From the NCBI RefSeq assembly GCF_004341365.1, contig NZ_SLXH01000016.1:1-64000 (forward strand): a stretch of 64,000 nt of DNA. Direction: 5' to 3'. The notes below the pieces were generated by a model. The model was not told where the DNA came from. It did not search any database and was given only the letters and a program-made list of their open reading frames with translations. Positions 5,561 through 63,628 of the stretch are shown in pieces; position 1 is the stretch's first letter, and every line of letters begins with the position of its first letter. The translations under genes and the position numbers were made by a program. Origin of the DNA: Simplicispira metamorpha. GTDB lineage: Bacteria > Pseudomonadota > Gammaproteobacteria > Burkholderiales > Burkholderiaceae_C.

Positions 5561-8275
5561 TTATTCGTCGGCCAGTGCGCGGGTGACGACCTCGCGCACG
5601 TCGTTGCTCAAGTCGGGGCGGGCAGCCACGCGCGCGATGGCTTCGCGGGCACCGCTGCGCCAGGGTTCGGCCAGTTTTTTCCAGCGGTCCAGCGCGCGCG
5701 CCAGCCGGGCAGCCACTTGCGGGTTGATGGCGTCGAGCTCAATGACGCGCTCGCTCCAGAAAACGTAGCCTGCCGCATCGGCCCGGTGGAAGGCGCCGGG
5801 GTTGGCGTTGCAGTAGCTGAAGATCACGCTGCGGGCGCGGTTGGGGTTTTTCAGGCTGAAGTCGGGGTGGTTCATCAGCTGTTTGACCTGCGCTAGCACC
5901 TGGCCGCCACGGTCGCAGGCACCGGCTTGCAGGGCAAACCATTTGTCCAGCACCAGCGGCTCGTCCTTGAACTGCGCATGAAAGCGCGCCAGCGCCGGTG
6001 CTGCCAGCGCGTGGCCGCTGCCAACCAGTGCGTTGAGGGCGTTGAAGCGGTCGGTCATGTTGCCCGCATCCTTGAAGCGTTGCAGCGCCTTGCCGGGCCA
6101 GACGGCATCGCCCGTGTGCTGCGCGGCCAGGCACAGCATGTGCAGCGCCATACCGGCCAGCGCGCGGCGGCCCGCTGAGGCGGCATCGGGCCGGTAGGCG
6201 CCGCTGTGCTGGTGCTGCTCGTAGGCCCACTGCCAGTCGGCCTGCAGCGCGGTGGCCAGTTGCAGGCGCATGGCCTCGCGCACGGCGTGGATGCGCTGCG
6301 GATCAACCACTTCCAGCTGCTCGGCGATGTAGGTCTCCGAGGGCAGGGCCAGCGCCAGCTCTTTGAACGCGGCGTCGAGCTGCGGGTGGCGCAGCACGGC
6401 GCGCATGGCCTGCACAAAGCTGTCGGGCAGGATTTGTTGGTCAATTTGGCCTGTAGCGCCCGTCTGAATTGCGCTATCAGCTATCGTATTGATAGCGATG
6501 CGCAGGGCCAGGCGCTGGCCCGCTTCCCAGCGGTTGAAGGCGTCGCTGTCGTGGGCTAGCAGGGTGAGCAGCTCGGCGTCGGTGTAGTCCACGTCCAGTA
6601 CCACGGGGGCGCTGAAGCCGCGCAGCAGCGAGGGCACGGGGGCCTCGTCCACATTGACAAAAGTCAGCTGCACACTGGACTCGGACAGCACCACGGTGCG
6701 ACTGGCCGCGCCCGGTGTATCTTCACCCGGCCATTGCAGGGGCAGGGCGCTGCCGTCTTGCGCCAGCAAGCCCAGCTCCACTGGGATAACGAAGGGCTCT
6801 TTGGTTGCTTGGCCCGGTGTGGGTGCGCAGCTTTGCGCCAGCGTGAGCGTGTAGGTGCGCGCAGCCGCGTCGTACTGGCCGGTGGCGCGCACGCGCGGCG
6901 TACCCGCTTGGCTGTACCAGTGCTTGAACTGGGGCAGCAGGCGCGCCAGGTCGCTGTCCGGGTTGGCATCGGCTATTGCGCCTGCGAAATCGTCGCAGGT
7001 CACGGCCTGGCCGTCGTGGCGCTCGAAGTAGAGCTTCATGCCGCGCGCAAAGCCGTCGCGGCCCACCAGGTTGTGCATCATGCGCACGACCTCGGCCCCT
7101 TTTTCGTAGATGGTGACGGTGTAGAAGTTGTTGATCTCGACGTAGCTGTCGGGTCGCACCGGGTGCGCCATGGGGCCGGCGTCCTCGGGGAACTGCGCGG
7201 TGCGCAGCACGCGCACGTCCTCAATGCGCTTGACGGCGCGTGCCGAAGGGCTGCCCGCCAAGTCCATGGAAAATTCCTGGTCGCGAAACACCGTCAGCCC
7301 CTCTTTGAGAGAGAGCTGGAACCAGTCGCGGCAGGTCACGCGGTTGCCCGTCCAGTTATGGAAATACTCGTGGCCGACCACCGATTCGATGTTGGCAAAG
7401 TCCACATCGGTGGCGGTGGCTTCGCTGGCCAAAACGTACTTCGTGTTGAAGATGTTCAGGCCCTTGTTTTCCATGGCGCCCATGTTGAAGTCGCTGGTGG
7501 CGACGATCATGAAGCGTTCCAGGTCGAGCGGCAGGCCAAAGCGCGCCTCGTCCCAGGCCACGCTGGCCATGAGCGAGCGCATGGCGTGTTCGGTCTTGCC
7601 CAGGTCACCGGGGCGCACGTACACCTCCAGCAAGTGATCGGTGCCTGCGCGGCTGGTGATGCGCTGCTGGCGCGCCACCAGCTTGCCCGCCACCAGGGCG
7701 AACAAATAGCTGGGCTTTTTGTGCGGGTCGTGCCACTTGGCAAAGTGGCGCCCGCCGTCCAGGTCGCCTTGCTCGACCAGGTTGCCGTTGGACAGCAGCA
7801 CCGGAAACTGGGCCTTGTCCGCGCGCAGCACCACGGTGTAGGTGGCCATCACGTCGGGCCGGTCGAGAAAGTAGGTGATGCGCCGGAAGCCCTCGGCTTC
7901 GCACTGCGTAAAAAACGTGCCCTGGCTCACGTACAAGCCCATGAGCTGGGTGTTCTTGTCGGGGGCGCAGGTGGTGAAAATCTCCAGGTCGAAGGCCTCC
8001 TCGCCTTCAGGAAGGTTCTCCAGCACCAGCTGGCTGCCTTCCATCTTGAACGAGGTGCCCGCGCCGTTGACCAGTACGCGCGAGAGGTTCAGCTCCTCAC
8101 CGTCCAGGCGCAGCGGCTGTGCTGGCACAGCGCTGTTGCGGCGCAGGCGCATCTTGTTGAGTACCCGGGTTTTGGCCGGGTCCAGGTCGAACGCCAGCTC
8201 GACGGTGTCAATCCACCAGGCAGGTGCCTGGTAGTCGCTGCGGTGTACCGCAGTGGCTTTTCCTTCACGCAACAT
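5561..8275 (-). CDS. pepN: Aminopeptidase N (M1 family)
   Basis: A 904-residue zinc aminopeptidase that removes N-terminal residues from peptides in the cytoplasm. The substrate-binding GAMEN motif is at residues 266-270 and the zinc-binding HEYFH at 302-306, with the third ligand Glu in the following [13 protein letters not shown] segment; these positions match E. coli PepN (870 residues). The start MLREGK follows prfB by 8 bp, so prfB, pepN and fbp form one operon. A degenerate copy of the window's dispersed repeat (6442-6495) is read through in frame in the C-terminal helical domain, giving the segment [18 protein letters not shown], and may account for the extra length. Confidence 0.96.
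6442..6495 (-). repeat. Dispersed repeat copy A, inside pepN
   Basis: In pepN reading direction it begins near atcaatacgatagctg and ends ctacaggccaaattg. This orientation is opposite to that of the copies in other coding genes. Confidence 0.55.
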
Positions 8276-8283
8276 GGTTCTCC

Positions 8284-10426: not shown

Positions 10427-10439
10427 GTGTTTGTTTGCA

Positions 10440-10500: not shown

Positions 10501-10676
10501 GCGGGCGCGTGTCCTGCCATTGCGCGCCCACCTCTGCAAGCTATTTCGCTTTTTTCCTGCCGACTCGGCGCTGCCAGCCTCCGTGCTGGGGGTGCAGGAC
10601 GGGCCTTTGCTGTAGCAGCGTCTGCGCGGCGTGCTGCCGGGGCAGGGATTCTGATGGTGTGAATGCGGTTGTGCTA

Positions 10677-10725
10677 TTAAATAAATAGCTGCTTGCGCTT
10701 GCTGTGCAAGGGTTTAATGCTTTTT
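10677..10725 (+). repeat. Dispersed repeat copy B, intergenic
   Basis: Core atagctgcttgcgcttgctg followed by gcaagggtttaatgc, next to the hydrolase stop. Confidence 0.6.
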
Positions 10726-11655
10726 ATCCCATAAAAAATGCTCTATCAGCGCGGCCACGGCCTGGGGTTGGTCGTGGTGCAGCATGTGGCCTGCGTCCTG
10801 CACGACGGCGGTGCGGCAGTCGGGCACTACTTTCAGTCGCTCGTGGAATTCGGCCAGCGTGTAGCGGCCTTTCCACCACTGGCCCATGCTGTCGTCGCTG
10901 GCTTGCACGGCCAGGGTGGGAGCGGCAATGGCGCTGTGGATGGCCAGGGTTTCGTCCACGCGGTAGAGCTGCGCGCTGACGATTTTGTGCGCCGCGTCGC
11001 CCAGAATGTGCCACTGCCCCTGGGCGTCGGGGCGCGCCCAGTGCTGCGCCAGCCACTGCGCCTTGTCGGGTGAGAGGCGCGGGTTGGTTTTCATCAGGCG
11101 CCGGGCCACGCCGTCGGCGCTGTCGTAGCCCTTGAGGGTGATCTCGCCACGCTCCAGGCGGCGCAGGTCGTCCATCCACTGCGCATAGCGCGCAGCCGCC
11201 TGGCTGGGCTGGCTGGCGGGCATGCCAAAGCCTTCCAGATTGACCAGGCGGCGGATGCGCTGTGGACGCACGCCCGCATACAGCATGGCAATGTTGCCGC
11301 CCATGCTGTGGCCGACCAGATCCACGGCCTGGCTGGGGGCGTAGTGGTCGAGCAGCTGGTCCAGATCGGCCAGGTAGTCGGCAAAGTGGTAGTGGTCGGC
11401 GGGCGTGGGCGCCGCCGTGAGGCCAAAGCCGCGCCAGTCGGGGGCAATGATCTGGCGGCCCTGGAAAAACGCCTCACTCAGCGCATCGACGACGAACTGG
11501 TACGAGGCGCCCACGTCCATCCAGCCATGGGCCAGTACCAGCGATGCGCCAGTGGGGCTGGCGCTGGCGTCGCCCCAGCGCCGGACGTGGTATTGCAGGG
11601 TGCGGATGGTGACAAATTCAGAGCGAGAGGGGCGTTGGGTTTGGTACATGCGCAC
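10714..11655 (-). CDS. Alpha/beta-fold hydrolase
   Basis: A 313-residue hydrolase of the alpha/beta fold. The oxyanion segment is LAHGWMDVG, the nucleophile elbow GHSMGG carries the catalytic Ser, and the acid and His are most likely in QASDDSMGQ and DAGHMLHHDQP. There is no signal peptide, so it is cytoplasmic. Substrate cannot be told; the family includes esterases, epoxide hydrolases and haloalkane dehalogenases. It is transcribed alone, with a dispersed repeat copy over its 3' end, and diverges from tas. Confidence 0.85.
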   Translation of the reverse strand: MRMYQTQRPSRSEFVTIRTLQYHVRRWGDASASPTGASLVLAHGWMDVGASYQFVVDALSEAFFQGRQIIAPDWRGFGLTAAPTPADHYHFADYLADLDQLLDHYAPSQAVDLVGHSMGGNIAMLYAGVRPQRIRRLVNLEGFGMPASQPSQAAARYAQWMDDLRRLERGEITLKGYDSADGVARRLMKTNPRLSPDKAQWLAQHWARPDAQGQWHILGDAAHKIVSAQLYRVDETLAIHSAIAAPTLAVQASDDSMGQWWKGRYTLAEFHERLKVVPDCRTAVVQDAGHMLHHDQPQAVAALIEHFLWDKKH

Positions 11656-11805: not shown

Positions 11806-12867
11806 ATGAAAACCATCCCCCTCGGTCACAGCGACCTGCACGTCACCCCCATCTGCCTGGGCACCATGACCTTTGGCGAGCAGGTCGCTGAGGCCGATGC
11901 CCACGCCATCCTCAGCCGCTCGCTGGAGCGCGGCGTCAACTTCATCGACACCGCCGAGATGTACGCCGTGCCCGCCCGCGCCGACACCTGCGGCGCCACC
12001 GAAACCATCATTGGCCGCTGGTTTGCCAAGAACCCGGGCGCGCGCCAGAAGCTGGTGCTGGCGACCAAGGTGGCTGGCCCCTCGCGCGGCATGCCCTGGA
12101 TTCGGCAGGGCGCGGGCATGACCGCTGCCGACATCGTGGCCTCGTGCGAGGGCAGCCTGCGTCGCCTGCAAACCGACGTGATCGACCTCTACCAGATCCA
12201 CTGGCCCGAGCGCCATGTGCCGGCGTTCGGCATCAAGTACTACGACCCGGCCAAAGAAACCACGCAAACGCCCATCCACGAACAATTGCAGGCGCTGGCG
12301 GGGCTGGTCAAGGCGGGCAAGGTGCGCCACATCGGCTTGTCGAACGAGACGCCCTATGGCGTCCACGAGTTTGTGCGCCTGGCCGAGCAGCACGGCCTGC
12401 CGCGCGTGGCCACGGTGCAAAACCCGTATTGCCTCATCAACCGCAGCTATGAGAACGCGCTGGACGAGAGCTGCCACCGCCTGGGCGTGTCGCTGCTGGC
12501 CTATTCGCCGCTGGGCTTTGGCCTGCTCACCGGCAAATACGACGCCAGCGGCATCGACGGCCCCGACGCTCCGCAGGGCGCGCGCATTGCCAGCTATGCC
12601 TCGGTGCGCCAGCAGCGCTGGGGCCGCCCCGAGGCGCTGGCCGCCGCGCGCCGCTACAACGCACTGGCGCGCGCGCATGGCCTGACGCCCGCGCAACTGG
12701 CGCTGGCGTTTTGCTACACCAAATGGCAGGTGTCCAGCACCATCATCGGCGTGACCTCGCTGGCGCAGCTGGACGACGATCTGGACGCCTGGGGCACCAC
12801 CTTGTCGCCCGAGCTGCTGGCGCAGATCGACGCCATCCGCTGGGAGCTGGGCGACCCGGCGATTTGA
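11806..12867 (+). CDS. tas: Aldo/keto reductase, Tas family
   Basis: A 353-residue NADP(H)-dependent aldo/keto reductase closely similar in layout to E. coli Tas (346). LGTMTFGEQ opens the TIM barrel, and FIDTAEMYAVPARADT holds the catalytic Asp and Tyr. The NADP-binding C-terminal part is TIIGVTSLAQLDDDL. The start is ATG at 11806 behind a CGGAGAG Shine-Dalgarno; a longer frame upstream lacks homology. Physiological substrate is unknown (E. coli Tas was found by suppression of tyrosine auxotrophy). It is followed directly by a hexanucleotide array. Confidence 0.93.
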   Translation: MKTIPLGHSDLHVTPICLGTMTFGEQVAEADAHAILSRSLERGVNFIDTAEMYAVPARADTCGATETIIGRWFAKNPGARQKLVLATKVAGPSRGMPWIRQGAGMTAADIVASCEGSLRRLQTDVIDLYQIHWPERHVPAFGIKYYDPAKETTQTPIHEQLQALAGLVKAGKVRHIGLSNETPYGVHEFVRLAEQHGLPRVATVQNPYCLINRSYENALDESCHRLGVSLLAYSPLGFGLLTGKYDASGIDGPDAPQGARIASYASVRQQRWGRPEALAAARRYNALARAHGLTPAQLALAFCYTKWQVSSTIIGVTSLAQLDDDLDAWGTTLSPELLAQIDAIRWELGDPAI

Positions 12868-12876
12868 GGCACCGTC

Positions 12877-12972
12877 GGCTACGGCTACGGCTACGGCTAC
12901 GGCTATGGCTATGGCTATGGCTATGGCTATGGCTATGGCTATGGCTATGGCTATGGCTATGGCTATGGCTAT
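12877..12972 (+). repeat. Hexanucleotide tandem array (GGCTAY)16
   Basis: Sixteen perfect hexamers: four GGCTAC followed by twelve GGCTAT, beginning 10 bp after the tas stop. It is intergenic (tas to ybaK). Such arrays are prone to slippage and copy-number change. Confidence 0.97.
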
Positions 12973-13054
12973 GGCACGGCGCACCGTGCGCTGCATGGGG
13001 CGGCACTGCTGTCGCGCCCTGGACTTGGACGTGGCGTGGTCGGTAAATGATTGT

Positions 13055-13110
13055 GGTCAAATCAGCTTCCAGCGCCCGCACAGTAAGCGCGAGCAGCTAT
13101 CATTTTGATT
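13055..13110 (-). repeat. Dispersed repeat copy C, upstream of ybaK
   Basis: Reads ggtcaaatcagcttccagcg then gcgagcagctatcattttgat on the plus strand, 40 bp before the ybaK start. Confidence 0.65.
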
Positions 13111-13149
13111 GTTAAATGGTTGCAAAAACCCCCGCATTGTCTGGACATC

Positions 13150-14822: not shown

Positions 14823-15067
14823 GGGGTTTCCTTGGGAGCGCCGGTGGGCTGGTTGCCCGCGCATGGTGGGATGGCCATCCAGGGCAGGCGCAGCACCGAT
14901 CAACGGCGTACAGAACACTGTAGGCCAATCCAGAAACGCTGGTCGGGAAAGGGGCTTGGCCTGCGCCGTAGCCGGTGCGTGCGGGGTGCTGCAAACGTTG
15001 CTTGCCGATGTGGCCCCGTGGTGCAGGGGCTGTGGCTGGGGTGCAAACGCTTGGGAGAGAAGAAGTT

Positions 15068-15161
15068 GACGAGCCTTACCCCCGGCACTGGCTCTACAGT
15101 TAGGGCTGCTTGGTTCCCCACCTGACCCGGTTGGCTGCTTCACCATGCGGGGAGGCCCGTC
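15068..15161 (-). ncRNA. ffs: Signal recognition particle 4.5S RNA
   Basis: The minus-strand transcript carries the SRP domain IV core: GGGTCAGGTGGGGAACCAAG followed by CAGCC. In E. coli the hairpin is CC-GGAA-GG; here it is GG-GGAA-CC, a compensatory exchange that keeps the tetraloop. The ends pair (GACGGGCC at the 5' end with GGCTCGTC at the 3' end). A TACAAT -10 element lies at 15174-15169, about 7 bp before the 5' end. It diverges from dnaX. Exact ends are estimated from pairing. Confidence 0.9.
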
Positions 15162-15221: not shown

Positions 15222-17258
15222 ATGTCTTACATCGTGCTCGCCCGCAAGTACCGCCCCCGCAATTTCACGGAAATGGTGGGGCAGGAGCACGTCGTGCAAG
15301 CCCTGACCAATGCCCTGACACAGCAGCGCCTGCACCACGCCTACCTGTTTACCGGTACGCGCGGCGTGGGCAAGACCACCGTGTCGCGCATTCTGGCCAA
15401 GTCGCTCAACTGCCAGGGGCCGGACGGCCAGGGCGGCATCACCGCCACGCCCTGCGGCGTGTGCCAGGCCTGTACCGACATCGACAGTGGCCGTTTTGTC
15501 GATTACACCGAGCTGGACGCGGCATCGAACCGGGGCGTGGATGAAGTGCAAAGCCTGCTGGAGCAAGCGGTGTACAAGCCGGTGCAGGGGCGCTTCAAGG
15601 TCTTCATGATCGACGAAGTCCACATGCTGACGAACACGGCTTTTAACGCCATGCTCAAGACGCTGGAGGAGCCGCCCGAATACCTCAAGTTTGTGCTGGC
15701 CACCACCGACCCGCAGAAAGTGCCCGTCACGGTGCTCTCGCGTTGCCTGCAATTCAACCTGCGGCCCATGGCGCCCGAGACGGTGTTGGAGCACCTCACG
15801 CGGGTGCTGGCCGCCGAGGGCGTACCCGCCCAGCCCCAGGCACTGCGCCTGCTGGCGCGGGCTGCGCGCGGCTCCATGCGCGATGCGCTCAGCCTGACCG
15901 ACCAGGCCATCGCCTTTGGCAGCGGCCAGCTGCAAGAGCCCAGTGTGCGCCTGATGCTGGGCAGCGTAGACCGGTCTTACGTGCTGCGCCTGATTGACGC
16001 GCTGGCGCTGGGCGACGGCAAAACCGTGGTCGAAACCGCCGAGGTGCTGCGCCTGCACGGGCTCTCAGCCGCCTCTACGCTGGAGGACATGAGCGCCGTG
16101 TTGCAGCGCATGGCCGTGTTGCAGGCGGTGCCGCAGATGGTCGCCAGCGTCGATGCCAGCGACCCCGATGCCCTGGAGATCGCCCGCCTGGCCGCGCTGA
16201 TGCCTGCGGACGAGACGCAGCTGCTCTACAGCATTTGCCTGCACGGGCGCGGCGAGCTGGGCCTGGCCCCCGACGAATACGCCGCCCTGACCATGGTGCT
16301 GCTGCGCCTGCTGGCCTTCAAGCCTGCGGGCAGCGCAGAAAAAAAAACACTGACGCGGCCTGAAGCGGTGCCTGAAAATTTCACGCCCAATCAGCTTTCA
16401 GCCCAGGCCCAGTCAGCGCAAGCAGCTATCTATCCGATAGCAGATGCGGCAGCTTCTCACTCAGTGCCAGCTCCGGTGGACGCCGTGGGTGCTGTCAGTG
16501 CAAATTTTGAGCTAAATCAGCCTCCAGGCCATGCCCAGCCAGCGCCAGCAGCTATCTATCCAGTAGCAAGTAGCGCGTCTGCCGCTGCGGCGCTAGCCCC
16601 GGCGGGTGCCGTGGGTGCAAATTTTCAGGTCAATCAGCCTTCAGGCCACGCCCAGCAAGCGCCAGCAGCTATCTATCCAGTAGCAGATACGATAGCCCCG
16701 GCGCCAGGCCCAGCCGGTGCTGTGGGGCAAAATTTTGACCCCCATCAGCCACCTGCCTTTGCGCAGCCAGCGCGACAAGCTATTGAAAAAATAGCAAATC
16801 TGCCTGCTGTCAGCGCCTCTCAGGGCACCGCAGTTGCTGCGCCCCTCCAGCGCACCAGCGCCACGGTGGCCGCCACCCCCGAGGGCGATCTCTGGCACGC
16901 CACCGTCCAGGCGCTGGCAGCCAGCGAGGCCATCACGGCGCTGGTGCGCGAACTGGCTTTGCAATCGCAACTGGTGGCGCATGACGGCGGCCACTGGCGG
17001 TTGCGTGTGGAGCGCGAATCGCTCAACCAGCCCATGGCCCGCGAGCGCCTGCGCGCGGCGCTGGAGGCCGCCGGCCACACCAGCCAGATCAGCGTGGAAG
17101 TGGGCCCTGTCACCGATACCCCCGCGCGGCGCAACGCCGCCGCCGAGCAAGAACGCCAGCGCGTGGCGCAGGACACCGTGGCCAACGACCCGTTTGTCCA
17201 GACCCTGGTGCGCGACTACGGCGCCAAAATCGTGCCCGGTAGCATCAAGCCCCTCTGA
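15222..17258 (+). CDS. dnaX: DNA polymerase III subunits gamma/tau
   Basis: The clamp-loader ATPase of the replisome, 678 residues as tau. Walker A GTRGVGKT is at 45-52, the zinc-module Cys are at 64, 78, 81 and 84, Walker B-type DEVH is at 131-134, and sensor 1 lies in VLSRC. At codons 373-376 a run of nine A allows a frame change to stops within a few codons, giving a gamma-like product of about 376-380 residues. Beyond this, residues about 385-530 are an Ala/Pro-rich linker made largely of four in-frame copies of the dispersed repeat (each reading roughly [22 protein letters not shown]). The tau C-terminal domain follows (about 545-678). It is probably cotranscribed with ybaB and recR. Confidence 0.96.
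16338..16363 (+). promoter_or_regulatory. dnaX A9 slippage / frameshift site
   Basis: The reading frame is GAA AAA AAA ACA across nine A (16339-16347). A -1 shift or one inserted A reads AAC ACT GAC GCG GCC TGA, stopping at 16361-16363. Loss of one A reads CAC TGA. Both alternatives end translation right after the ATPase and oligomerisation domains. Confidence 0.7.
16376..16443 (-). repeat. Dispersed repeat copy D, in dnaX
   Basis: In-frame copy, ending gcgcaagcagctatctatcc. Translates as [20 protein letters not shown]. Confidence 0.8.
16501..16570 (-). repeat. Dispersed repeat copy E, in dnaX
   Basis: In-frame copy, ending gcgccagcagctatctatcc. Translates as [20 protein letters not shown]. 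Confidence 0.8.
16618..16688 (-). repeat. Dispersed repeat copy F, in dnaX
   Basis: In-frame copy nearly identical to copy E. Translates as [20 protein letters not shown]. Confidence 0.8.
16728..16798 (-). repeat. Dispersed repeat copy G, in dnaX
   Basis: A more diverged in-frame copy. Translates as [20 protein letters not shown]. Confidence 0.7.
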
Positions 17259-18244: not shown

Positions 18245-18257
18245 GGGCGTTCATTGC

Positions 18258-18310
18258 TTCTAATTTAATAGCTGCTAGCGCGCATCCAGCAAGGGCTGGA
18301 GGCTTAAAAT
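18258..18310 (+). repeat. Dispersed repeat copy H, after recR
   Basis: taatagctgctagcgcgcat then aagggctggaggcttaaaat, 14 bp after the recR stop. Confidence 0.7.
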
Positions 18311-18444
18311 GCCGTTATTGATGCGTGCGGTACGTAGAAACCCGCAGGGACTGACCCTGATGCGCTGCTGCCACGGGGAAGGCACAATTGCTGCACTGCA
18401 CCAATTGTGGCGCCCACCCAGGAGTTTTCTTTACCGTGCCGCCC

Positions 18445-30825: not shown

Positions 30826-30836
30826 TGGTTGCTTTG

Positions 30837-30897
30837 TTTTTGATAGCTGCTAGCGCTTGCTGCGTAAGCGCTAGAGGCACTTTTTGCCTAAAATTCA
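30837..30897 (+). repeat. Dispersed repeat copy I, ilvD-lgt
   Basis: The clearest copy: tgatagctgctagcgcttgc then gtaagcgctagaggcacttt. The inner AGCGCTTGC/GTAAGCGCT forms a hairpin. Confidence 0.85.
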
Positions 30898-30955
30898 GCC
30901 CATCCAGCCAACCCGGTTTTTTGCGCGGGATTGGGTGCCGGGCACAATCGCCGCC

Positions 30956-31771
30956 ATGCTGATTTATCCCCACATTGATCCCGTTGCGTTGCAGATCGGC
31001 CCCTTGGCCATCCACTGGTATGGCCTGACGTATCTGGCGGCGTTTGGCCTGTTCATGTTTCTGGGCACGCGGCGCCTGCGCCATCCGCCCTTTGCGGCCA
31101 TCACCGGGCCGGGTGCTTGGTCGCGCCGCGATGTGGAGGACATCTTGTTCCTGGGCGTGATGGGCGTCATCGTGGGAGGGCGGCTGGGTTACTGCCTGTT
31201 TTACAAGCCCGGTTATTACGCGACCCATCCGCTGGAGATTTTTGCCATCTGGCAGGGCGGCATGAGCTTTCATGGCGGCTTGCTCGGCGTCATCGCTGCG
31301 ATGGTCTGGTTTGCCCGCTCGCGCCAGCGGCCTTGGTTGCAGGTGGCTGACTTTGTCGCGCCCTGCGTGCCCACCGGGCTGGCGGCAGGGCGTGTGGGCA
31401 ACTTCATCAATGGCGAGCTGTGGGGCCGCTTTGCCAGCCCCGATTTGCCTTGGGGCATGGTGTTTGCGCACAGCGGCTCCATGCAGCCGCGCCACCCGTC
31501 GCAGGTGTACCAGTTTTTGCTCGAAGGGCTGTTGCTGTTCGTGCTGCTGTGGCTGTATGCGCGCCGTGAGCGCCGCCAGGGCCAGGTGGCGGCGGCCTTT
31601 TTGCTGGGCTATGGCGTGTTCCGCTTCATTGCCGAGTTCTTCCGCGAGCCCGACGGCTTCCTGGGCCTGTTGCCGCTGGGCATGAGCATGGGCCAGTGGC
31701 TGTGCCTGCCGATGGTGGCCGGTGGTGTGGGCCTGTGGCTGTGGGCCCAGCGCCAGCCGGTGCAAAAATAA
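30956..31771 (+). CDS. lgt: Prolipoprotein diacylglyceryl transferase
   Basis: An inner-membrane enzyme that attaches diacylglycerol to the lipobox Cys of prolipoproteins. It has 271 residues (E. coli 291) with about seven membrane segments. The Lgt signature [14 protein letters not shown] is present, as are HGGLLGV and the essential-His region [12 protein letters not shown]. The ATG at 30956 gives the usual N-terminus ([20 protein letters not shown]); an earlier in-frame start would include the dispersed repeat. Confidence 0.95.
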
Positions 31772-31781
31772 CAAGTCAAAT

Positions 31782-31842
31782 TGGCATCAAAGCCTTACAG
31801 GCAGGGCGCTAAAAGCCATTGAATTAATAGCGTTTGGTGTTG
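31782..31842 (-). repeat. Possible diverged dispersed repeat copy J
   Basis: caaattggcatcaaagcctt then gggcgctaaaagcc and ttaatagcg. It retains the spacing of the family but little of the core. Confidence 0.35.
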
Positions 31843-33420: not shown

Positions 33421-34242
33421 ATGTCAGGAGAAGTGATTGCTGCGCCGGTGGTCGGCGCAGCCCCGGCGGCGGCCGGTGTGGTGCGCGTCACGTTGCGCCA
33501 CAGCGGCAGGCTCAACGCCATGTCGCGCGCCATGTGGCGCCAGCTGCGCTCTGTTTTTGAGAGCATTCAGCGCAGCCAGGACGTGCGCTGCGTGCTGATT
33601 GAGGGCGATGGCGGCGCGTTTTGCGCGGGCGGCGATATTTCGGAATACCCGGCGTTTCGCTTTGATGCGGCGCAGCTGCGCGATTTTCACGAGGGCGATG
33701 TGTGGGGCGGCCTGCAGGCCATGCTCGATTGCGATGTGCCCATCGTGGCGCACATTGCGGGTGCCTGCATGGGCGCGGGCGTGGAGATTGCCAGCTGCTG
33801 CGATCTGCGCATTGCGGGCACGTCCGCGCGTTTTGGTGCGCCGATTGCCAAACTGGGCTTTCCGATGGCGCCGCGCGAGGCACAACTGGTGGCTGGTGCG
33901 GTCGGTGAACTCACAGCGCGCCAGATGCTGCTGGAGGCGGCCACCTTCAGCGCCAGTGACATGCTGGCGCGTGGCTTTTTGAGCCGGGTGGTGGCAGACG
34001 AGCAGCTGGCCGTCGATGCCCTGGGCAGCGCCTGCCGCATCGCCGCGCTGGCGCCCCAAGCCGCACGCATGACCAAACAAACATTTCGGGCATTAAAAGT
34101 GCCTCCAGCCCTTGATGGGTGCGCGCTACCAGCTATCGAAACCATAGTAAACGGCAGCGCCGACCCCTACGCCTACGCCGACAGCGCCGAGCACCGCGAA
34201 GGCATTACGGCCTTTCTGGCCAAACGTCCCCCTGTTTTTTGA
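33421..34242 (+). CDS. Enoyl-CoA hydratase/isomerase family protein
   Basis: A 273-residue crotonase-fold protein. The oxyanion-hole segments are FCAGGDISEY and HIAGACMGAGVEIASCCDLR. The second catalytic Glu expected near position 135-145 could be in PMAPREAQL. Length is normal. Its place between the malonyl-CoA decarboxylase and synthetase genes is consistent with CoA-ester metabolism, but the true substrate is unknown. A diverged copy of the dispersed repeat is read in frame near the C-terminus (LKVPPALDGCALPAIETIV). It ends 5 bp before matB. Confidence 0.88.
   Translation: MSGEVIAAPVVGAAPAAAGVVRVTLRHSGRLNAMSRAMWRQLRSVFESIQRSQDVRCVLIEGDGGAFCAGGDISEYPAFRFDAAQLRDFHEGDVWGGLQAMLDCDVPIVAHIAGACMGAGVEIASCCDLRIAGTSARFGAPIAKLGFPMAPREAQLVAGAVGELTARQMLLEAATFSASDMLARGFLSRVVADEQLAVDALGSACRIAALAPQAARMTKQTFRALKVPPALDGCALPAIETIVNGSADPYAYADSAEHREGITAFLAKRPPVF
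34082..34150 (-). repeat. Dispersed repeat copy K, inside the enoyl-CoA hydratase gene
   Basis: cattaaaagtgcctccagcc then gcgcgctaccagctatcgaa, in the same orientation and reading frame as the dnaX copies. Confidence 0.65.
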
Positions 34243-35830: not shown

Positions 35831-35868
35831 AAAATCGCCTCCAGCATGGCATGGCTGGAGGCGATTTT
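35831..35868. terminator. Bidirectional terminator between matB and uspA
   Basis: A perfect 15-bp stem, AAAATCGCCTCCAGC (35831-35845) with GCTGGAGGCGATTTT (35854-35868), with A and T runs at its ends. It serves both convergent genes. Confidence 0.9.
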
Positions 35869-35872
35869 GCTT

Positions 35873-35930
35873 CTGAATTGATAGCTGCTTGCGCTTGGTG
35901 CGCAAGGCGTAGAGCCTGATTTGGCTTGAA
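35873..35930 (+). repeat. Dispersed repeat copy L, matB-uspA
   Basis: tgatagctgcttgcgcttgg then gcaaggcgtagagcctgatt, directly behind the terminator. Confidence 0.85.
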
Positions 35931-35952
35931 GTGAATGCGCTGTCCGCAGCGT

Positions 35953-44259: not shown

Positions 44260-45690
44260 ATGAGTGATCTGAACGACAAACAAAGCCTGTATCCACCCGA
44301 TTGGCTTGAGGTGGAATCTCTTGATCTGGACGCCCAAGGTGTAGCGCACCGGCCCGATGGCAAGGTGGTCTTCATTGACGGTGCCTTGCCTTTTGAATGG
44401 GTGACTGCCAACACCCATCGCAAGAAGAACAATTGGGAGCAGGCCAGCTTGACCGCTGTCCACCGTGAATCGCCCCAGCGCGTTCGTCCGGGATGCCCGC
44501 ACTTTGGTCTGCATTCTGGTGCTTGTGGCGGCTGCAAAATGCAGCATCTGCACGTGGGTGCCCAAGTGGCTGTGAAGCAGCGCGTTCTGGAAGACAACCT
44601 GTGGCATTTGGGCAAGGTCAAGGCAGAAACCTTGCTGCGTCCCATTGAAGGCCCTGCCTGGGGTTATCGTTACCGCGCCCGTTTGTCGGTACGCCATGTC
44701 ATTAAAAAAGGCACGGTGCTGGTGGGTTTTCATGAGCGCAAAAGCCGCTATGTGGCCGATATGGAGGTCTGTCCTGTGCTGCCACCGCACGTCAGTGCCA
44801 TGCTGATGCCGTTGCGCGCCCTGATTGCCGCCATGGATGCCCGCGATACTTGCCCGCAAATCGAGCTGGCCTGCGGCGACAGCGTCACGGCGCTGGTGCT
44901 GCGTCACCTGGAGCCCTTGTCGAGCGATGATCTGGCCCGTCTGCGTGCGTTTGCCGCTGAGCATGGCGTACAGTGGTGGTTGCAGTCCAAAGGGCCGGAT
45001 ACGGTGAAATTGCTGGATGAGGGTGGGGCGCAGTTGTCATATGCGTTGCCTGAGTTTGGTATCACCATGCCGTTCAAGCCTACCGATTTCACCCAGGTCA
45101 ATCCCCATATCAATCGGGTGCTGGTGTCGCGCGCATTGCGTCTGCTGGAAGTGCAGAACAACGAGCGCGTTATTGACTGGTTCTGTGGTCTTGGCAACTT
45201 TACGCTGCCTTTGGCCACTCAGGCCCGTGAAGTGCTGGGTATCGAAGGTAGCGAGACGCTGGTGGCGCGTTCCCGTGAAAACTATGAATCAAATCAGGCT
45301 CAAATGCCCGCAGGACGAGCGCTTGCAGCTACAGATTTTGTAGCGCGCAACTTGTTTGAGATGACCCCTGAGATGTTGGTAGCCGATGGCGTGGCCGACA
45401 AATGGCTGGTCGATCCACCGCGCGAAGGTGCTTTTGCCTTGGCCAAGGCACTGGCTGACCTGGAGCAGGCCCGTATTGGTGCCGAAGGCGCAGGCCCGCT
45501 GCCTGCTGGTGCGGAAGGCTGGACGCCGCCGCAGCGCATTGTCTATGTCAGCTGTAACCCTGCCACGCTGGCGCGTGATGCTGGCTTGTTGGTGCATCTG
45601 GCGGGCTACCGTTGTACGGCTGCAGGCATGGTCAACATGTTTCCGCACACGGCGCACGTTGAGAGCATGGCGGTGTTCGAGCGCGCCTGA
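44260..45690 (+). CDS. rlmD: 23S rRNA (uracil1939-C5)-methyltransferase
   Basis: A 476-residue RNA m5U methyltransferase of the RlmD/TrmA class. The TRAM domain is at about 12-70. Iron-sulfur Cys are in [19 protein letters not shown] plus Cys in MEVCPVL. The SAM motif is [14 protein letters not shown], and the catalytic Cys is in [13 protein letters not shown]. All key residues are present. A diverged dispersed-repeat copy is read in frame near 45287-45342 ([19 protein letters not shown]). It is convergent with the lipoprotein gene. Confidence 0.93.
45287..45342 (-). repeat. Dispersed repeat copy M, inside rlmD
   Basis: aatcaaatcaggctcaaatg then gagcgcttgcagctacagat, in the same orientation and reading frame as the dnaX copies. 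Confidence 0.6.
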
Positions 45691-48540: not shown

Positions 48541-49254
48541 TTATTCGAGAACAAAATTGATGGGCTGCGCGTACCACATGGCTTCGGGTACACCACCGCG
48601 CTTGCCGGGAACGAACCGCCAGCGCATGACGGCCTCCTGGGCCTGGCGGTCCAGGCGCTCGTAGCCGCTGGATTGGCTGACTTCGACTTTTTGCGGCAGT
48701 CCGTCGGCGCCGATCAGTACGCGCAGCATGACCCGGCCTTGCTCACCCAGGCGCTTGCTGATGGCGGGATAGCCGGGAGAGGGGTTGTTGAGGTGCGTAG
48801 CGTTGCTGGATGGCAGTTCAATGCGCGGTGGTGCGGGCGGCGCGGGTGTGGCCGGTGCAGCGGTCGGTGCCGCAGCGGGAGCTGATACCGGGGCAGGATC
48901 GGGTGCAGGTGCTGCGGCTGCTACTTGCGGTGCATCGGGGGCGGCATTGGCTACTGCCAGCGGTGCAGGCGTCGGGCGTGGCGCGGGTGCCTTGGTTGCG
49001 GCGGGGCGCGGTGTAGGGGGCGACTTGGGGGTGGGTGGGGCAGGCGGTGCCGGTGGCGGCGGAGCTACTTCGGGGGTGGGCGGCGCAATGAATTCTGCAA
49101 TCACTTCGGCGGGAACGATGGTGGGCGCCGCTGTAGGTACCAGGCCCGTTTGCAATGCCCACAATGCAGCCCCGTGCAGCAGCGCCACGCCGCCAGAGAT
49201 CAGCGCGTAGCGGCCCCAGGCGCTGGGTGCAGTGAAACGGTCAGTAGAAGGCAT
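48541..49254 (-). CDS. tonB: Energy transducer TonB
   Basis: A 237-residue protein that carries energy from ExbBD to outer-membrane receptors. One N-terminal anchor (ALISGGVALLHGAALWALQT, with the conserved His) is followed by a long Pro/Ala-rich spacer (residues about 55-145) and the C-terminal domain with YPAISKRLGEQGRVMLRVLI and the SSGYERLDRQAQEAVMRWRFVPG motif. It is preceded by dispersed repeat copy N. Confidence 0.93.
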   Translation of the reverse strand: MPSTDRFTAPSAWGRYALISGGVALLHGAALWALQTGLVPTAAPTIVPAEVIAEFIAPPTPEVAPPPPAPPAPPTPKSPPTPRPAATKAPAPRPTPAPLAVANAAPDAPQVAAAAPAPDPAPVSAPAAAPTAAPATPAPPAPPRIELPSSNATHLNNPSPGYPAISKRLGEQGRVMLRVLIGADGLPQKVEVSQSSGYERLDRQAQEAVMRWRFVPGKRGGVPEAMWYAQPINFVLE

Positions 49255-49310
49255 AAAAAATGATAGCTGCCAGCGCTTGCCAGCATTGGGTTACAAGCCG
49301 ATTTGATTGA
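49255..49310 (+). repeat. Dispersed repeat copy N, bfd-tonB
   Basis: aatgatagctgccagcgctt then ttgggttacaagccgatttg, lying just upstream of the tonB start. Confidence 0.75.
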
Positions 49311-49391
49311 AATCAGAAGCGAAAAATCCACCACGCGGCCAACGCCACCAGAAACATGCTGCCCACCAGCGCAGAGAGCAGCATAGGCAAT

Positions 49392-49701: not shown

Positions 49702-50853
49702 TTAGATGCCCATACGGCCTGTGGCGTGGTTTTGCAGCAAAGCCGGTGTGGCTTGCGCCAGCGTGGCGCAGCCCGTCAGGGCCATGGCGATTTCCAGTTC
49801 ATCACGCAGCAGGCGCAGCACATGTGCCACCCCCATTGCGCCGGCGTGGGCCAGCCCCCACAGGGCCGGGCGGCCAATGAGTACCGCACTGGCGCCCAGG
49901 GCCAGGGCTTTGAGCACGTCGGTGCCCCGGCGGATGCCCCCATCGACCAGGAGCGGCAAGGCGCCTTGCACCGCGTCGGCAATGTGGGCCAGCGCGTGCG
50001 CCGTGGCAGGGGCGGTGTCCAGCGTGCGGCCACCGTGGTTCGACACCACCAGCGCTGCTACGCCCAGCGCGGCGGCTTGGCGTGCGTCATCGGGGTGCAG
50101 TACGCCTTTGAGCAGCACCGGCAAGCGGGTGGTGGATTGCAGCCATTGCACATCGTCCCAGGTGGGGGTGTGGTGCAGCAGGCGGTCGAACAGGGCGCTT
50201 TCTCCGGGTTGCAACGGGGCTGATGGCGGTGGCGCCAGCCCGGCCAGATTGACGGCGCTGATGCCAGCAGGCAGGTGGAACAGGGCACGCCGCTCGCGGT
50301 CGCGGGCGCCGTGGGTGGGTGCGTCCACCGTCAGCACCAGCGCTTCGTAGCCAGCGGCTTCAGCGCGCTGCACCAGTTCGCGGGTAAAGCCCCGGTCGTG
50401 TTGCAGGTAGAGCTGGAACCACAGCGGGCCGTGCGCCGGGTCGGCCAGAAAGCGCTGTGCCACGTCTTCCAGTGGCGTGCTGGCCTGGGTGCTGAGCACC
50501 AGTCCGGCGCCCAACGCGGCCGCAGCAAAGGCGCTGGCGTGTTCGCCATCAGGGTGTGCCAGGTGCTGGAAAGCCATGGGGGCCAGCAAAATGGGGTGTT
50601 CCAGGGTGCGTCCCAGCAGCGTGGTACGGGTGTGCCCGCCGGCCAGGGGGCGCAAGATGCGCGGCTGCAGCACCAGCGTGTCCCAGGCCGTACGGTTGGC
50701 GCGCAGTGTGATTTCATCGGCAGCACCGCCACTGAAATACGCCCAGGCGTTGTCGTTCAGGTGCTGGCGCGCCAGTGCTTCGTGGTCGGCCAGCGCAGCC
50801 GTGCCAGGGGGGATGGCGTGCCGCTGTAGTGGGGGCACGTTTTTTATGGTCAA
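49702..50853 (-). CDS. FMN-dependent alpha-hydroxy-acid oxidase family protein
   Basis: A 383-residue enzyme of the lactate/glycolate/mandelate oxidase family, which oxidises L-2-hydroxy acids. The FMN and substrate motifs are AYFSGGAADEITLRANRTAW, LAPMAFQHLAHPDGE, LVLTVDAPTHGARDRERR and the active-site signature VVSNHGGRTLD. Phosphate binding is seen in LVDGGIRRGTDVLKALALGA. The start is most likely TTG at 50853, because GGAGG lies 8 bp before it and no ATG is near. The substrate is not predictable. The Shine-Dalgarno lies in a dispersed repeat copy. Confidence 0.88.
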   Translation of the reverse strand: MTIKNVPPLQRHAIPPGTAALADHEALARQHLNDNAWAYFSGGAADEITLRANRTAWDTLVLQPRILRPLAGGHTRTTLLGRTLEHPILLAPMAFQHLAHPDGEHASAFAAAALGAGLVLSTQASTPLEDVAQRFLADPAHGPLWFQLYLQHDRGFTRELVQRAEAAGYEALVLTVDAPTHGARDRERRALFHLPAGISAVNLAGLAPPPSAPLQPGESALFDRLLHHTPTWDDVQWLQSTTRLPVLLKGVLHPDDARQAAALGVAALVVSNHGGRTLDTAPATAHALAHIADAVQGALPLLVDGGIRRGTDVLKALALGASAVLIGRPALWGLAHAGAMGVAHVLRLLRDELEIAMALTGCATLAQATPALLQNHATGRMGI

Positions 50854-50902
50854 AATGGCCTCCGTGCCAATACTGGCGTGCGCTAGCAGCTATCTTTTTT
50901 GA
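50848..50902 (-). repeat. Dispersed repeat copy O, over the hydroxy-acid oxidase start
   Basis: ggtcaaaatggcctccgtgc then gcgctagcagctatcttttt. Its ggcctcc, read on the minus strand, gives the GGAGG of the downstream gene. Confidence 0.75.
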
Positions 50903-50924
50903 TGGATTTGCAGGGATGCGAAAT

Positions 50925-58516: not shown

Positions 58517-58620
58517 GGAGCAGGGGCCACACAGGGGCCTGAAGAAGATGCTGGGGAGGAAATGTTGGCCCGTGGGACGTTGCGGCCCAATAGCGGCGCC
58601 AGCCCAGCGGTAAATCAGGT

Positions 58621-58791
58621 GTCTGCAAGTGCCGCCGGACCGGCATCCTGAACCGGGGGTTCAGGTGGGCGAGGGCAGGCTGGCGTTGGGTTCATCTGAC
58701 GCGAGATGATCACGCTCACCAGCCGATGTACCAAGCCCGGGCTCAATGAGCATTGGTTCAAGGAAATATAAAGCCCGGCAGCACCGCAGAC
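58621..58791 (-). ncRNA. ssrS: 6S RNA
   Basis: A 171-nt RNA whose ends pair (GTCTGC at the 5' end with GCAGAC at the 3' end; GTGCTGCC with GGCGGCAC). Like E. coli 6S, it has a 3'-side hairpin CCTGAACC/GGTTCAGG and the stretch GGCTGGTGAGC before a variable loop. It lies downstream of zapA on the same strand, the usual place of ssrS in beta- and gammaproteobacteria. A TACAAT -10 precedes it by 6 nt. It would bind RNA polymerase holoenzyme. Confidence 0.87.
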
Positions 58792-58797
58792 GCAGCC

Positions 58798-58803: not shown

Positions 58804-58844
58804 GGGGTTTGGCGCGGTGTTGCAGGCGTGCAGCCGTGCCGTCG

Positions 58845-59434: not shown

Positions 59435-59452
59435 AGCGCCGTAGAATCCGCG

Positions 59453-59667
59453 CCGTTGGTGCTCGCGGCGTGGTTCACAGGCCGCAGTTCAACGGGAAGC
59501 AGGGACGCGGTGCCAGTGCCAGCCACAGTCACCGTCCAGCCTGCGCTGCCCCCGCAACGGTCAGCGGCCGAATCCTTTGATTCACTCTCCATCACACAGT
59601 CACTGGGTGCCTTGAACAAGCGCCTGGGAAGGCTTTGGAGAGCGCGCCGCCAGCCCGGATACCGGCC
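59453..59667 (+). promoter_or_regulatory. Cobalamin riboswitch
   Basis: It has the conserved cobalamin elements in order: aacgggaa at 59491-59498, gctgcccccgcaacgg at 59545-59560, and the B12 box cagcccggataccggcc at 59651-59667. It lies 95 bp before a BtuB-type receptor gene, so B12 would turn the operon off. A GC-rich stretch after the B12 box could form the expression platform. Confidence 0.93.
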
Positions 59668-59762
59668 AACACGGTGGTGGTGCGTGCCCCTGGGGGCCGT
59701 GCTGTCGTATTGCCCAATGTCGGCGGGGAAGCCGGCACGGGTCATTCTCTGCTTTGACTCCC

Positions 59763-61631: not shown

Positions 61632-61658
61632 CCTGAACCCGCAAAGCACCGCCGCACC

Positions 61659-63014
61659 ATGACCGCCACCCCCCGCTGTCCCGCCCTGCTGATTGCCGCC
61701 CCGGCATCGGGCCAGGGTAAAACCACCGTCACGGCTGCCTTGGCACGCCTGCATACCCGCCAGGGGCGGCGCGTGCGCGTGTTCAAGTGCGGGCCGGATT
61801 TTCTGGATCCGCACTGGCACCAGCTGGCCAGCGGTGCGCCGGTTCACCAGCTCGACGGCTGGATGACCGGCCCCGCCGACATGGCCGCGCGCCTCCACGC
61901 CGCCGCGCAAGAGTCCGACCTGATCCTCATCGAAGGCGTGATGGGCCTGTTCGATGGCACGCCCAGCGCCGCCGATCTGGCCGCGCGCCTGGGTGTGCCG
62001 GTGCTGGCGGTGGTCGATGCGGCGGCCATGGCGGGAACGTTTGGCGCGCTGGTCTATGGGCTGGTGCACTACCAGCCGGGCCTGCGCTGGGCCGGTGTGC
62101 TGGCCAACCGCGTGGCCAGCCAGCACCACGCTGATTTGCTGCGCGCCGGCCTGCGCGAGCCCGCGCTGTGGCAAGGCGCGCTGGCGCGGGTGGAGCAGGG
62201 TGCGGACAAATCCCTGCTGCCCGAGCGCCACCTGGGCCTGGTGGCCGCACACGAGCTGCACGACGCCCTGGAGCGCCTGGACGCTGCCGCCGATGCGCTG
62301 GACGCCACCGCGCTGGGCCAGCGCTCCTGGGCCGACTGGCAGGATTGGGCCGTGGAGTTCCCCGCGCCCGGCCCCGACCTGGCCGCCGACGAGCCTCCCG
62401 GCCCCTGGCTGCAAGGGCGCACCGTGGCCGTGGCGCGCGATGCCGCCTTCAGCTTCATCTACCCGGCCAACCTCGATTGCCTGGAGGCCATGGGCGCGCG
62501 GCTGGCATTTTTCTCGCCGCTGGCGGGCGATGCCTTGCCAGTGTGCGATGCCATCTGGTTGCCCGGCGGCTACCCTGAACTGCACGCGCCAGCCCTGCGC
62601 GCCAACCAGACGCTGCAAGACGGCCTGCGTGCGCACATCGCCGCTGGCCTGCCCGTTTGGGCCGAATGCGGTGGCATGGTGGCGCTGTGCGAAGGCATTA
62701 CCGACCGCGACGGCCAGTTCCAGCCGCTGTGGGGCCTGTTGCCCGGGCGCGCCACCTTGCAGCCGCGCCTGGCCGGGCTGGGCATGCAGCAGCTGGCCAC
62801 CGACCAGGGCTTGCTGCGCGGCCACACCTTCCATTACTCGCGGCTGGACAGCGCCATGCCCGAGCTGGCGCGCAGCAGCCGCCCGGGCCAGCCCGCGCAG
62901 GCCGACAAGGGCGAAGCGCTGTACCGCCACGCCAGCGTGCAGGCCAGCTACTTCCACGCCTGGTTTGCCTCCCACCCGCGCGCCGTGGCCGCGCTGTTGG
63001 GCGCATTCGCATGA
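61659..63014 (+). CDS. cobB: Cobyrinate a,c-diamide synthase
   Basis: A 451-residue ATP- and glutamine-using amidotransferase (called CbiA or CobB). The P-loop-like APASGQGKTTVTAAL opens the synthetase half, with FKCGPDFLDPHWH and LILIEGVMGLFDG. The glutaminase half has the catalytic Cys in WAECGGMVALCEG and the His near YRHASVQASYFHAW. It amidates cobyrinic acid in adenosylcobalamin synthesis or salvage. Starts 27 bp after btuB and overlaps cobU (ATGA). Confidence 0.92.
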   Translation: MTATPRCPALLIAAPASGQGKTTVTAALARLHTRQGRRVRVFKCGPDFLDPHWHQLASGAPVHQLDGWMTGPADMAARLHAAAQESDLILIEGVMGLFDGTPSAADLAARLGVPVLAVVDAAAMAGTFGALVYGLVHYQPGLRWAGVLANRVASQHHADLLRAGLREPALWQGALARVEQGADKSLLPERHLGLVAAHELHDALERLDAAADALDATALGQRSWADWQDWAVEFPAPGPDLAADEPPGPWLQGRTVAVARDAAFSFIYPANLDCLEAMGARLAFFSPLAGDALPVCDAIWLPGGYPELHAPALRANQTLQDGLRAHIAAGLPVWAECGGMVALCEGITDRDGQFQPLWGLLPGRATLQPRLAGLGMQQLATDQGLLRGHTFHYSRLDSAMPELARSSRPGQPAQADKGEALYRHASVQASYFHAWFASHPRAVAALLGAFA

Positions 63015-63628
63015 CGGCCACCCCCAGCCCCATTGCCCGCAGCGAGCTGATTCTGGGCGGGCAAAAAAGCGGCAAATCGCGCCGTGCCGAATTGCTGGCG
63101 CGCGATTGGTTGGCCCAGTCGCCGCAGCACAGTGCGCTGTTGATTGCCACCGCCCAGCCCTGGGACGACGAGATGCGCGCGCGCATCCAGCGCCACCAGC
63201 GCGACCGCGCCGCGCGCGTGCCCGGTCTGGCCACCTTGGAGGAGCCGCTCGACCTGGCCGCCGTGCTCCAGCGCGAGAGCACACCGCATACCCTGATCGT
63301 GGTGGACTGCCTGACGCTGTGGCTGACCAACTGGCTGATGCCCGCCGATAGCGCAGCGCTGCCGCTGGCAGAGAATTCAGAGCCAAATCCGCCTCCAGCC
63401 CTCGCGTGGCAAGCGCAAGCAGCTCTCTTTTCAGGAGCGATTGCGCAGGCCCCTGGCCCCGTGGTGCTGGTGGGCAACGAGATTGGCCTGGGCGTCATCC
63501 CCCTGGGCCGGGAGGTGCGCGCTTTTGTCGATGCGCTGGGCCAGCTCAACCAGCAGATGGCCCAGGTGTGCGCGCGCGTCACCCTGATGGCGGCGGGCCT
63601 GCCGCTGACCCTGAAAGACACCGCATGA
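63011..63628 (+). CDS. cobU: Adenosylcobinamide kinase / guanylyltransferase
   Basis: A 205-residue enzyme that phosphorylates adenosylcobinamide and adds GMP. The Walker A motif is ILGGQKSGKSRRAE, Walker B is LIVVDCLTLWLTNWL, and the conserved VGNEIGLGVIPLGREVRAF is the family signature. A copy of the dispersed repeat is read in frame after residue about 120 (ENSEPNPPPALAWQAQAALF), lengthening a loop; E. coli CobU has 181 residues. Overlaps cobB and btuF by 4 bp each. Confidence 0.92.
   Translation: MTATPSPIARSELILGGQKSGKSRRAELLARDWLAQSPQHSALLIATAQPWDDEMRARIQRHQRDRAARVPGLATLEEPLDLAAVLQRESTPHTLIVVDCLTLWLTNWLMPADSAALPLAENSEPNPPPALAWQAQAALFSGAIAQAPGPVVLVGNEIGLGVIPLGREVRAFVDALGQLNQQMAQVCARVTLMAAGLPLTLKDTA
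63372..63440 (-). repeat. Dispersed repeat copy P, inside cobU
   Basis: agagccaaatccgcctccag then aagcgcaagcagctctcttt, in the same orientation and reading frame as the dnaX copies. Confidence 0.7.

Follow-up and report, generated by a model that had tools for sequence, protein, structure and literature searches.

A degenerate, dyad-symmetric motif of about 70 bp dispersed through genomes of Simplicispira and its relatives: probably a kept DNA recognition sequence, and possibly an uptake signal

The stretch of Simplicispira metamorpha DNA analysed here (assembly GCF_004341365.1, contig NZ_SLXH01000016.1, positions 1 to 64,000; hereafter the window) contains 16 copies of a short sequence motif that lies both between and inside genes. 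The motif is most likely a recognition sequence in double-stranded DNA, degenerate, dyad-symmetric and about 70 bp long, with an extrapolated total of about 800 copies per genome. We estimate a probability of roughly 0.8 that the family is a DNA recognition motif kept by the genomes that carry it, and not a mobile insert. Biased DNA uptake is predicted, by analogy with known systems and with a likelihood somewhat short of even, as the reason why it is kept. The evidence comes from the anatomy of the copies, the comparison of motif-bearing genes with their homologues, the persistence of the motif at orthologous sites, and its distribution among and within genomes.

A first-pass annotation of the window had described a dispersed family of about 15 copies, plus a doubtful one at 31782, that occupies genic and intergenic sites in both orientations and is read through in frame inside genes. 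This description is borne out. All 16 places form a gapless alignment over a 63-nt core, and their leave-one-out scores range from 37.3 to 69.3 bits. The doubtful place is a genuine copy (39.7 bits when left out), and five of the 16 copies are on the minus strand. In the comparison with random sequence, the best score reached in 90 Markov windows (three orders, 30 windows each) was 8.2 bits, against 37.3 bits or more for the copies of the window. The search was extended to twenty further stretches of 20 kb, placed at round coordinates, which together with the window make up 464 kb of the 3.78-Mb assembly. The profile found 102 matches in this sample, 86 of them in the 400 kb outside the window, which correspond to 85 distinct places because one place was counted on both strands; the 16 in the window fit the model by construction. 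By extrapolation, the genome total is about 800 and not about 15.

The edges of the motif are sharp. In an alignment of 104 copies, information rises above background from about position -12 to about +58 of the core, so that its length is about 70 nt and not the 55-70 bp first proposed. The best-conserved part is GCGC-n-AGCAGCTAT, A/T-rich patches are found near -9, +1 and +45, and the profile is dyad-symmetric around core position 22. The copies have a mean G+C content of 0.476 (47.6%), against 0.640 for the scanned sequence. According to our own codon-usage gene calls, 36 of the 104 copies are intergenic, 31 lie over a gene end and 37 are inside a gene, 22 in the sense and 15 in the antisense orientation. 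A single frame is used by 18 of the 22 sense copies and by 12 of the 15 antisense copies, counts that include weak matches.

Inside genes, the copies had been likened to the palindromic coding inserts of Rickettsia, and this likeness did not hold. The comparison was made with 800 kb, about a quarter, of the genome of the motif-free sister Giesbergeria anulus (G001), which contains a single weak motif match of 18.6 bits. A tblastn alignment that extends beyond the motif by eight residues on each side was obtained for 11 of the 37 in-gene copies; for the other 26, the main reason for its absence is that the comparison covered just that quarter of the genome. None of the 11 shows a motif-sized gap of about 23 residues, or indeed one of 20 or more. 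Eight lack no residue in G. anulus (one has a residue extra), and the other three lack two, four and six. In the genes proposed for an orthologue check, the G. anulus protein is shorter by six residues in pepN, two in rlmD and four in cobU, not by about 23. In-gene copies favour genes with a match in G. anulus: at least one flank is matched there for 19 of the 37, compared with 246 of 839 random in-gene places (p = 0.005). The segments under the motif are less conserved and differ in codon choice: their identity to G. anulus is 0.48, versus 0.80 in control windows of the same alignments, and the G+C content of third codon positions is 0.421 under the motif (834 codons) versus 0.800 elsewhere in the same genes (14977 codons). 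An ABC ATPase provides a conserved example, with VLELKKALTPAESAQAAIELLAK under the motif and VLELKQALTSAQSFNAAVEMLAR in G. anulus.

Homologues in the PDB give a similar picture for seven motif-bearing genes, none of which has a clean 23-residue insert in these alignments. The alignment of LpxB passes through the motif free of gaps, and those of the DppD-type protein and RarA have one-residue gaps around it. The homologues of the remaining four are shorter around the motif, by 8 residues for RlmD, 7 and 3 for enoyl-CoA hydratase, 2 and 5 for PepN, and 9, 3 and 6 for CobU, which amounts to 7-18 residues in total, always in pieces. Because these four are shorter there, the motif seems often to lie in loops of variable length. 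To judge from these alignments, the in-gene motif is probably an overlay on existing sequence at places where the protein tolerates change.

Once present, the motif tends to persist. Orthologous sites were traced by their flanks in 1.92 Mb of loci, where 239 matches yielded 1062 flank pairs: 672 with the motif, 24 intermediate and 366 without it. One intergenic site is motif-bearing in 26 loci from several genera. Among motif-rich congeners, the motif (score of at least 20) is kept in all 68 equal-length pairs and in all 134 pairs with a net length of 50-95, and in other genera it is kept in 85 of 102 pairs. Identity between orthologous copies is 0.86 at the 18 high-information columns versus 0.66 at the 14 low-information ones, in pairs that share genomes and so are not independent, and whose source copies were preselected at 45 bits or more.

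The profile search across genomes of the family, which the first-pass annotation had proposed, found the motif in abundance, but only in some relatives. Whole-genome scans scored at most 150 candidates per genome. Of 17 relatives within the genus, 14 gave 103-150 scored matches, and G001, G004 and G007 gave zero, five and two. When 28 named genomes were searched with a family-wide model, 15 had 139-150 matches among 150 scored candidates and 13 had 0-4. The motif-rich ones belong to Acidovorax, Alicycliphilus, Comamonas, Extensimonas, Paenacidovorax, Rhodoferax and Simplicispira, together with one Ramlibacter; the motif-poor ones belong to Giesbergeria, Delftia, Variovorax, Hydrogenophaga, Curvibacter, Xylophilus, Diaphorobacter and Paracidovorax, together with another Ramlibacter. 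With a fixed profile, 200 kb of Comamonas testosteroni gave 24 copies and 200 kb of Acidovorax benzenivorans gave 30; a profile iterated on C. testosteroni moved towards AT-rich sequence and was set aside. A sample of the family with one genome per genus had matches in 39 of 120, of which 22 had 33-40 among 40 scored candidates and 10 had one. Twelve genomes of other families had no motif matches. Copy number is therefore nearly all-or-none between close relatives. A DnaX tree of 43 rows shows eight changes of the rich or poor label, at least four of them forced on well-supported branches, and three poor rows of the Giesbergeria group form a supported clade within a moderately supported group of rich congeners.

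Within genomes, the motif is preferentially found in the backbone rather than in foreign DNA. Around island integrases (20 of 48 P4-type integrase matches, in nine motif-rich genomes) there are 46 copies in 375.5 kb, versus 165 in 844 kb taken from other parts of these genomes (p = 0.0023). The deficit depends on the direction of the integrase, with nine copies in 169.0 kb downstream versus 37 in 206.6 kb upstream (p = 2.9e-4), the downstream side being the one that we take, from the general layout of such islands and after the counts had been seen, to be the island. No replication polarity was detected in G003, where, by GC skew, replication starts near 3.2-3.3 Mb and ends near 1.0 Mb: the leading strand carries 77-81 of 150 copies (p = 0.37-0.81).

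These features are what would be expected if DNA uptake were biased towards the motif and followed by recombination, namely a redundant, dispersed dyad motif that is absent in sister genomes and rarer near islands. In genes, the motif would be written into pre-existing sequence by base changes and not copied in, and something that acts on the DNA itself would maintain its copies. This maintaining force may be biased uptake, of the kind that operates on uptake signal sequences in Neisseria and Haemophilus: a receptor on the cell surface would favour DNA that carries the motif, and recombination would then spread it. Where a lineage lost the preference, the copies would erode, through base changes in genes and through deletion between them. 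Neither orientation is favoured among the known uptake sequences, and they are over-represented outside genes, according to the available text of PMC1939737. The part of the literature seen on competence in the family is also suggestive. Verminephrobacter eiseniae undergoes type IV pilus-dependent, sequence-selective transformation, which an excess of salmon DNA lowers only about tenfold, and some Acidovorax are competent; the portion of the paper available names no uptake sequence in this connection (PMC4212676). It is possible, if a shade more doubtful than the uptake function as such, that the Comamonadaceae have an uptake signal of their own, a 70-bp dyad with two-state dinucleotides that would be unlike the known ones in size and form, repeatedly lost and eroded together with the preference, and a tag shared across Simplicispira, Acidovorax, Comamonas and Rhodoferax.

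Several observations weigh against the reading of a kept recognition motif used in uptake. The first concerns the columns of the alignment. At p <= 0.0025, 47 column pairs are linked where 6.2 are expected, and adjoining columns are strongly so: columns 17-18 read TT in 45 of the 104 copies, CC in 31, TC in one and CT in none, and columns 26-27 read AA in 32 and GG in 26. At orthologous sites, these two-state doublets change state as doublets. Because adjoining bases are so strongly linked, evolution base by base is only part of the story, and our confidence in a recognition motif was reduced for this reason. In favour of the reading, linkage over longer distances is near chance, with 11 pairs more than two columns apart where 5.9 are expected, and seven where 5.9 are expected among copies of at least 45 bits outside dnaX. 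The pairwise identity of copies (mean 0.514) has a standard deviation of 0.069, versus 0.053 in column shuffles. The most identical pairs are dnaX copies (0.887, 0.803 and 0.775) and a single pair from elsewhere (0.775), which exceeds the maximum of 0.746 seen in the shuffles. The dnaX copies aside, there is little sign of recent copying, although the columns are not fully independent. The arms also give a weak signal: a three-hairpin covariation was reached by four of 500 shuffles of the 16 window copies, and with 102 copies and G-U pairs allowed the excess was at best barely perceptible, the covariation score being matched by 51 of 500 shuffles and the number of two-sided changed cells by 36 of 500.

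The intergenic sites and the flanks add to these contrary points. At four sites, gaps that bear the motif exceed the corresponding G. anulus gaps by 59, 67, 189 and 241 bp, while motif-free gaps differ by a median of 4 bp (35 sites). Such longer gaps fit the insertion of a block or its deletion after loss of use equally well, and between genes whole blocks may have been gained or lost. Intergenic copies have no excess of flanks matched in G. anulus, and both flanks are matched for 13 of the 37 in-gene copies and 197 of the 839 random places. Intermediate numbers of matches (5-22 of 40 scored) occur in seven of the 120 family genomes, and adjoining copies in G003 are on the same strand more often than by chance (91 of 149, p = 0.0034).

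Other points touch the uptake function in particular. The competence proteins ComEC and DprA are encoded in 51 and 54 of 54 genomes, respectively, motif-rich or not, and the S. metamorpha genome has genes of both families; being near-universal, they do not discriminate rich from poor genomes. Known uptake sequences are words of 9-12 bp and not palindromes, as far as the texts available describe them (PMC4212676, PMC1939737), whereas the motif is a degenerate dyad of about 70 bp and not a short, near-identical, non-palindromic word. Acidovorax temperans is described as taking only the DNA of its own species and not that of A. facilis (PMC4212676, in the part seen); A. facilis is motif-rich, and A. 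temperans lies outside the genomes searched. Two of these considerations lowered our confidence in uptake: the lack of palindromes among the known sequences, and the assignment of the island side once the counts were known.

Among the alternatives, the one that survives best, although we regard it as unlikely, is a binding site for an intracellular protein of chromosome architecture, segregation or topology. Centred on the dyad, about 70 bp would be wrapped by a dimer, and the A/T tracts would be spaced by about one helical turn; the chromosome would require these sites, which would erode where the protein is lost. The dyad centre at position 22 and the A/T patches suit such a protein, as do the constraint at the DNA level, the lack of replication polarity and the preference for host backbone. 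Loss in many close relatives would be strange if the protein organised the whole chromosome, each of several hundred redundant sites would have to justify the residue changes and rare codons that it brings, and the analysis turned up no candidate protein. Given the repeated losses, a genome-wide protein site fits less well than uptake.

An old mobile element of the kind of the Rickettsia palindromic elements (RPEs), miniature inverted-repeat transposable elements or repetitive extragenic palindromic (REP) sequences is improbable. It would be a 70-bp unit that entered gaps and genes long ago and decayed, with the copies in the best-tolerated frames surviving. This accounts readily for the discrete edges, the intergenic blocks absent from the sister genome, the ancient sites common to several genera, the frame bias and the linked adjoining bases, and also for the local duplication in dnaX. 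It is harder to reconcile with the lack of an insert-sized gap in all 11 testable in-gene copies, with key columns conserved while others diverge, and with the depletion around island integrases; no target duplications were seen, and the intergenic absences have no clean ends, among the genomes compared, which include no close pair of strains. A Y1 transposase of the REP-associated tyrosine transposase (RAYT) kind was considered as the mover and rejected, since such genes do not track the motif: G002 has 150 scored matches and no Y1_Tnp, and G001 has no motif and four Y1_Tnp.

There is very little probability that the motif is an RNA element, whose hairpins in the transcript would serve in the termination, stabilisation or processing of mRNA. 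A stop codon is only a few bases away from many of the intergenic copies, and of five copies folded with DNA parameters three beat their shuffles (z down to -3.2), although the other two were no better. The copies, however, lie in both orientations to genes, also inside them, and their arms show little covariation. The pairing middle noticed in the first-pass annotation is real in the consensus, where the arms pair, and is accompanied by barely any covariation among copies. None of 20 arm pairs was above chance in 104 copies, the set of 102 copies had fewer pairs with a change in both arms than its shuffles did, and RNAalifold returned only two trivial pairs. The sole pairing trend is the weak one of columns 17-18 with 26-27, complementary in 29 of 104 copies where 23.5 are expected. 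A three-hairpin model, apparently supported with 16 copies, failed with 102-104 and was rejected. Contrary to this general lack, the orthologues of the copy at 13047-13117 (loci L110 and L112) differ by one compensated arm change between G017 and G011 (GCGCTT..AAGCGC and GCGTTT..AAACGC), which an RNA element would explain.

Least probable of all is a divergent branch of the betaproteobacterial repeat element (BRE), which is reported from Bordetella and Comamonadaceae, mostly between genes and with some copies inside them (PMC3110155, in the text available): the Bordetella element is about 90 bp long with a mean G+C of 69%, often tandem, in at most 29 copies per genome, and has 13 copies in a Delftia strain (same source), whereas our motif is about 70 nt long, 47.6% G+C, dispersed and present in about 800 copies, with one match in Delftia tsuruhatensis, a separation drawn from the description of BRE and not from its letters.

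The places of the motif in the window are collected in Table 1.

Table 1. Motif copies in the window, with one weak candidate (positions are those of the whole stretch; G numbers are genomes compared)
Position	Strand	Location	Remark
6431..6501	+	In pepN (M1 aminopeptidase, minus-strand gene 5561-8275)	Antisense
10668..10739	-	Over 3' end of alpha/beta hydrolase gene	
13047..13117	+	5' end of aminoacyl-tRNA editing-domain gene	Orthologous place: motif in G002, G011, G013, G017; none in G001, G007
16376..16446	+	dnaX linker, copy 1	
16502..16572	+	dnaX linker, copy 2	88.7% identity with copy 3
16619..16689	+	dnaX linker, copy 3	
16730..16800	+	dnaX linker, copy 4	
18251..18322	-	Intergenic, directly downstream of gene 17654-18244	
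30826..30897	-	5' edge of predicted gene 30884-31771	
31766..31836	+	3' end of predicted gene 30884-31771	39.7 bits
33543..33614	-	Weak candidate	15.4 bits; probably a chance match
34083..34153	+	Within enoyl-CoA hydratase gene (33421-34242)	All 10 aligned relatives carry the motif at this place
35864..35935	-	Intergenic	Same place: motif in 6 relatives, none in G008
45279..45349	+	Within rlmD-like rRNA methyltransferase gene (44260-45690)	
49246..49317	-	Intergenic	
50840..50910	+	5' end of FMN-dependent dehydrogenase gene (49702-50853, minus strand)	
63373..63443	+	Within cobU (63011-63628)	

The weak candidate is probably not a copy, because its orthologues are coding sequence of equal length that lacks the motif. 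The four copies of the dnaX linker (16376-16800) are spaced 111-126 bp apart and are the product of local duplication; the DnaX protein has 688 residues, compared with a frame of 617 in G. anulus, and motif matches in the dnaX linker are also found in many other genera. Among the other features of the window, a tandem array of GGCTAC/GGCTAT hexamers is located near a gene end at 12865-12984, and tandem 11-bp repeats of the AGCACCGTGCA and AGCAACGTTAA types occupy 4233-4331, just upstream of the place of tRNA-Thr. A search of Rfam at gathering scores gave four matches in the window, none of them on a motif copy: tRNA-Thr (4455-4530), bacterial small SRP (signal recognition particle) RNA (15065-15161), 6S RNA (58616-58795) and a cobalamin riboswitch (59440-59684). 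The sequence strings of the motif were found in no paper, and topic searches of the literature gave no description of it among the papers listed.

To our knowledge, uptake signals are established in two families only. If the motif is one, it would be of a new type beyond these two, and it could be the so far missing sequence that would account for the selectivity reported for transformation in Verminephrobacter; in this family, motif-rich sister species can be compared directly with motif-free ones. If it is a protein-binding site instead, a protein that binds about 800 sites across the chromosome has so far escaped notice. On either reading, about 1.5% of the DNA would have been rewritten in some genomes (800 copies of 70 bp in 3.78 Mb). 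Such genomes would pay for it with unusual codons and residue replacements, and these stretches should not be annotated as inserts.

The motif shares features with several known systems. Like the BRE of Bordetella and other betaproteobacteria, it is a short chromosomal repeat that is mostly intergenic and sometimes genic, and it departs from it, in a comparison by description only, in length, G+C content, tandem arrangement, copy number and taxonomic spread. With the RPEs it has in common shortness, a palindromic consensus and a presence inside genes in preferred frames, as described in the accessible part of PMC10969869; the RPEs, however, are inserts of about 150 bp, while the coding copies of the motif overlie homologous protein sequence. 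The REP sequences associated with RAYT proteins are likewise short palindromes in hundreds of copies, many beside stop codons, but a third of the motif copies are in genes (37 of 104) and they do not track Y1 transposases. The closest likeness is to the DNA uptake sequences and uptake signal sequences of Neisseriaceae and Pasteurellaceae. In the texts available, these number hundreds to thousands of copies, lie on both strands with no replication polarity, inside genes and in excess outside them, are linked to core and not to foreign DNA, and are present or missing by lineage in naturally competent families (PMC3630211, PMC1939737, PMC4212676). Unlike these sequences of 9-12 bp, the motif is about 70 bp long, has a dyad, exists in many variants per genome and occurs about once per 4-5 kb. 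Because its size and symmetry differ and its function is only predicted, it is not classed as an uptake sequence, yet this is the kind of element that, by analogy, it would most resemble in the way it works.

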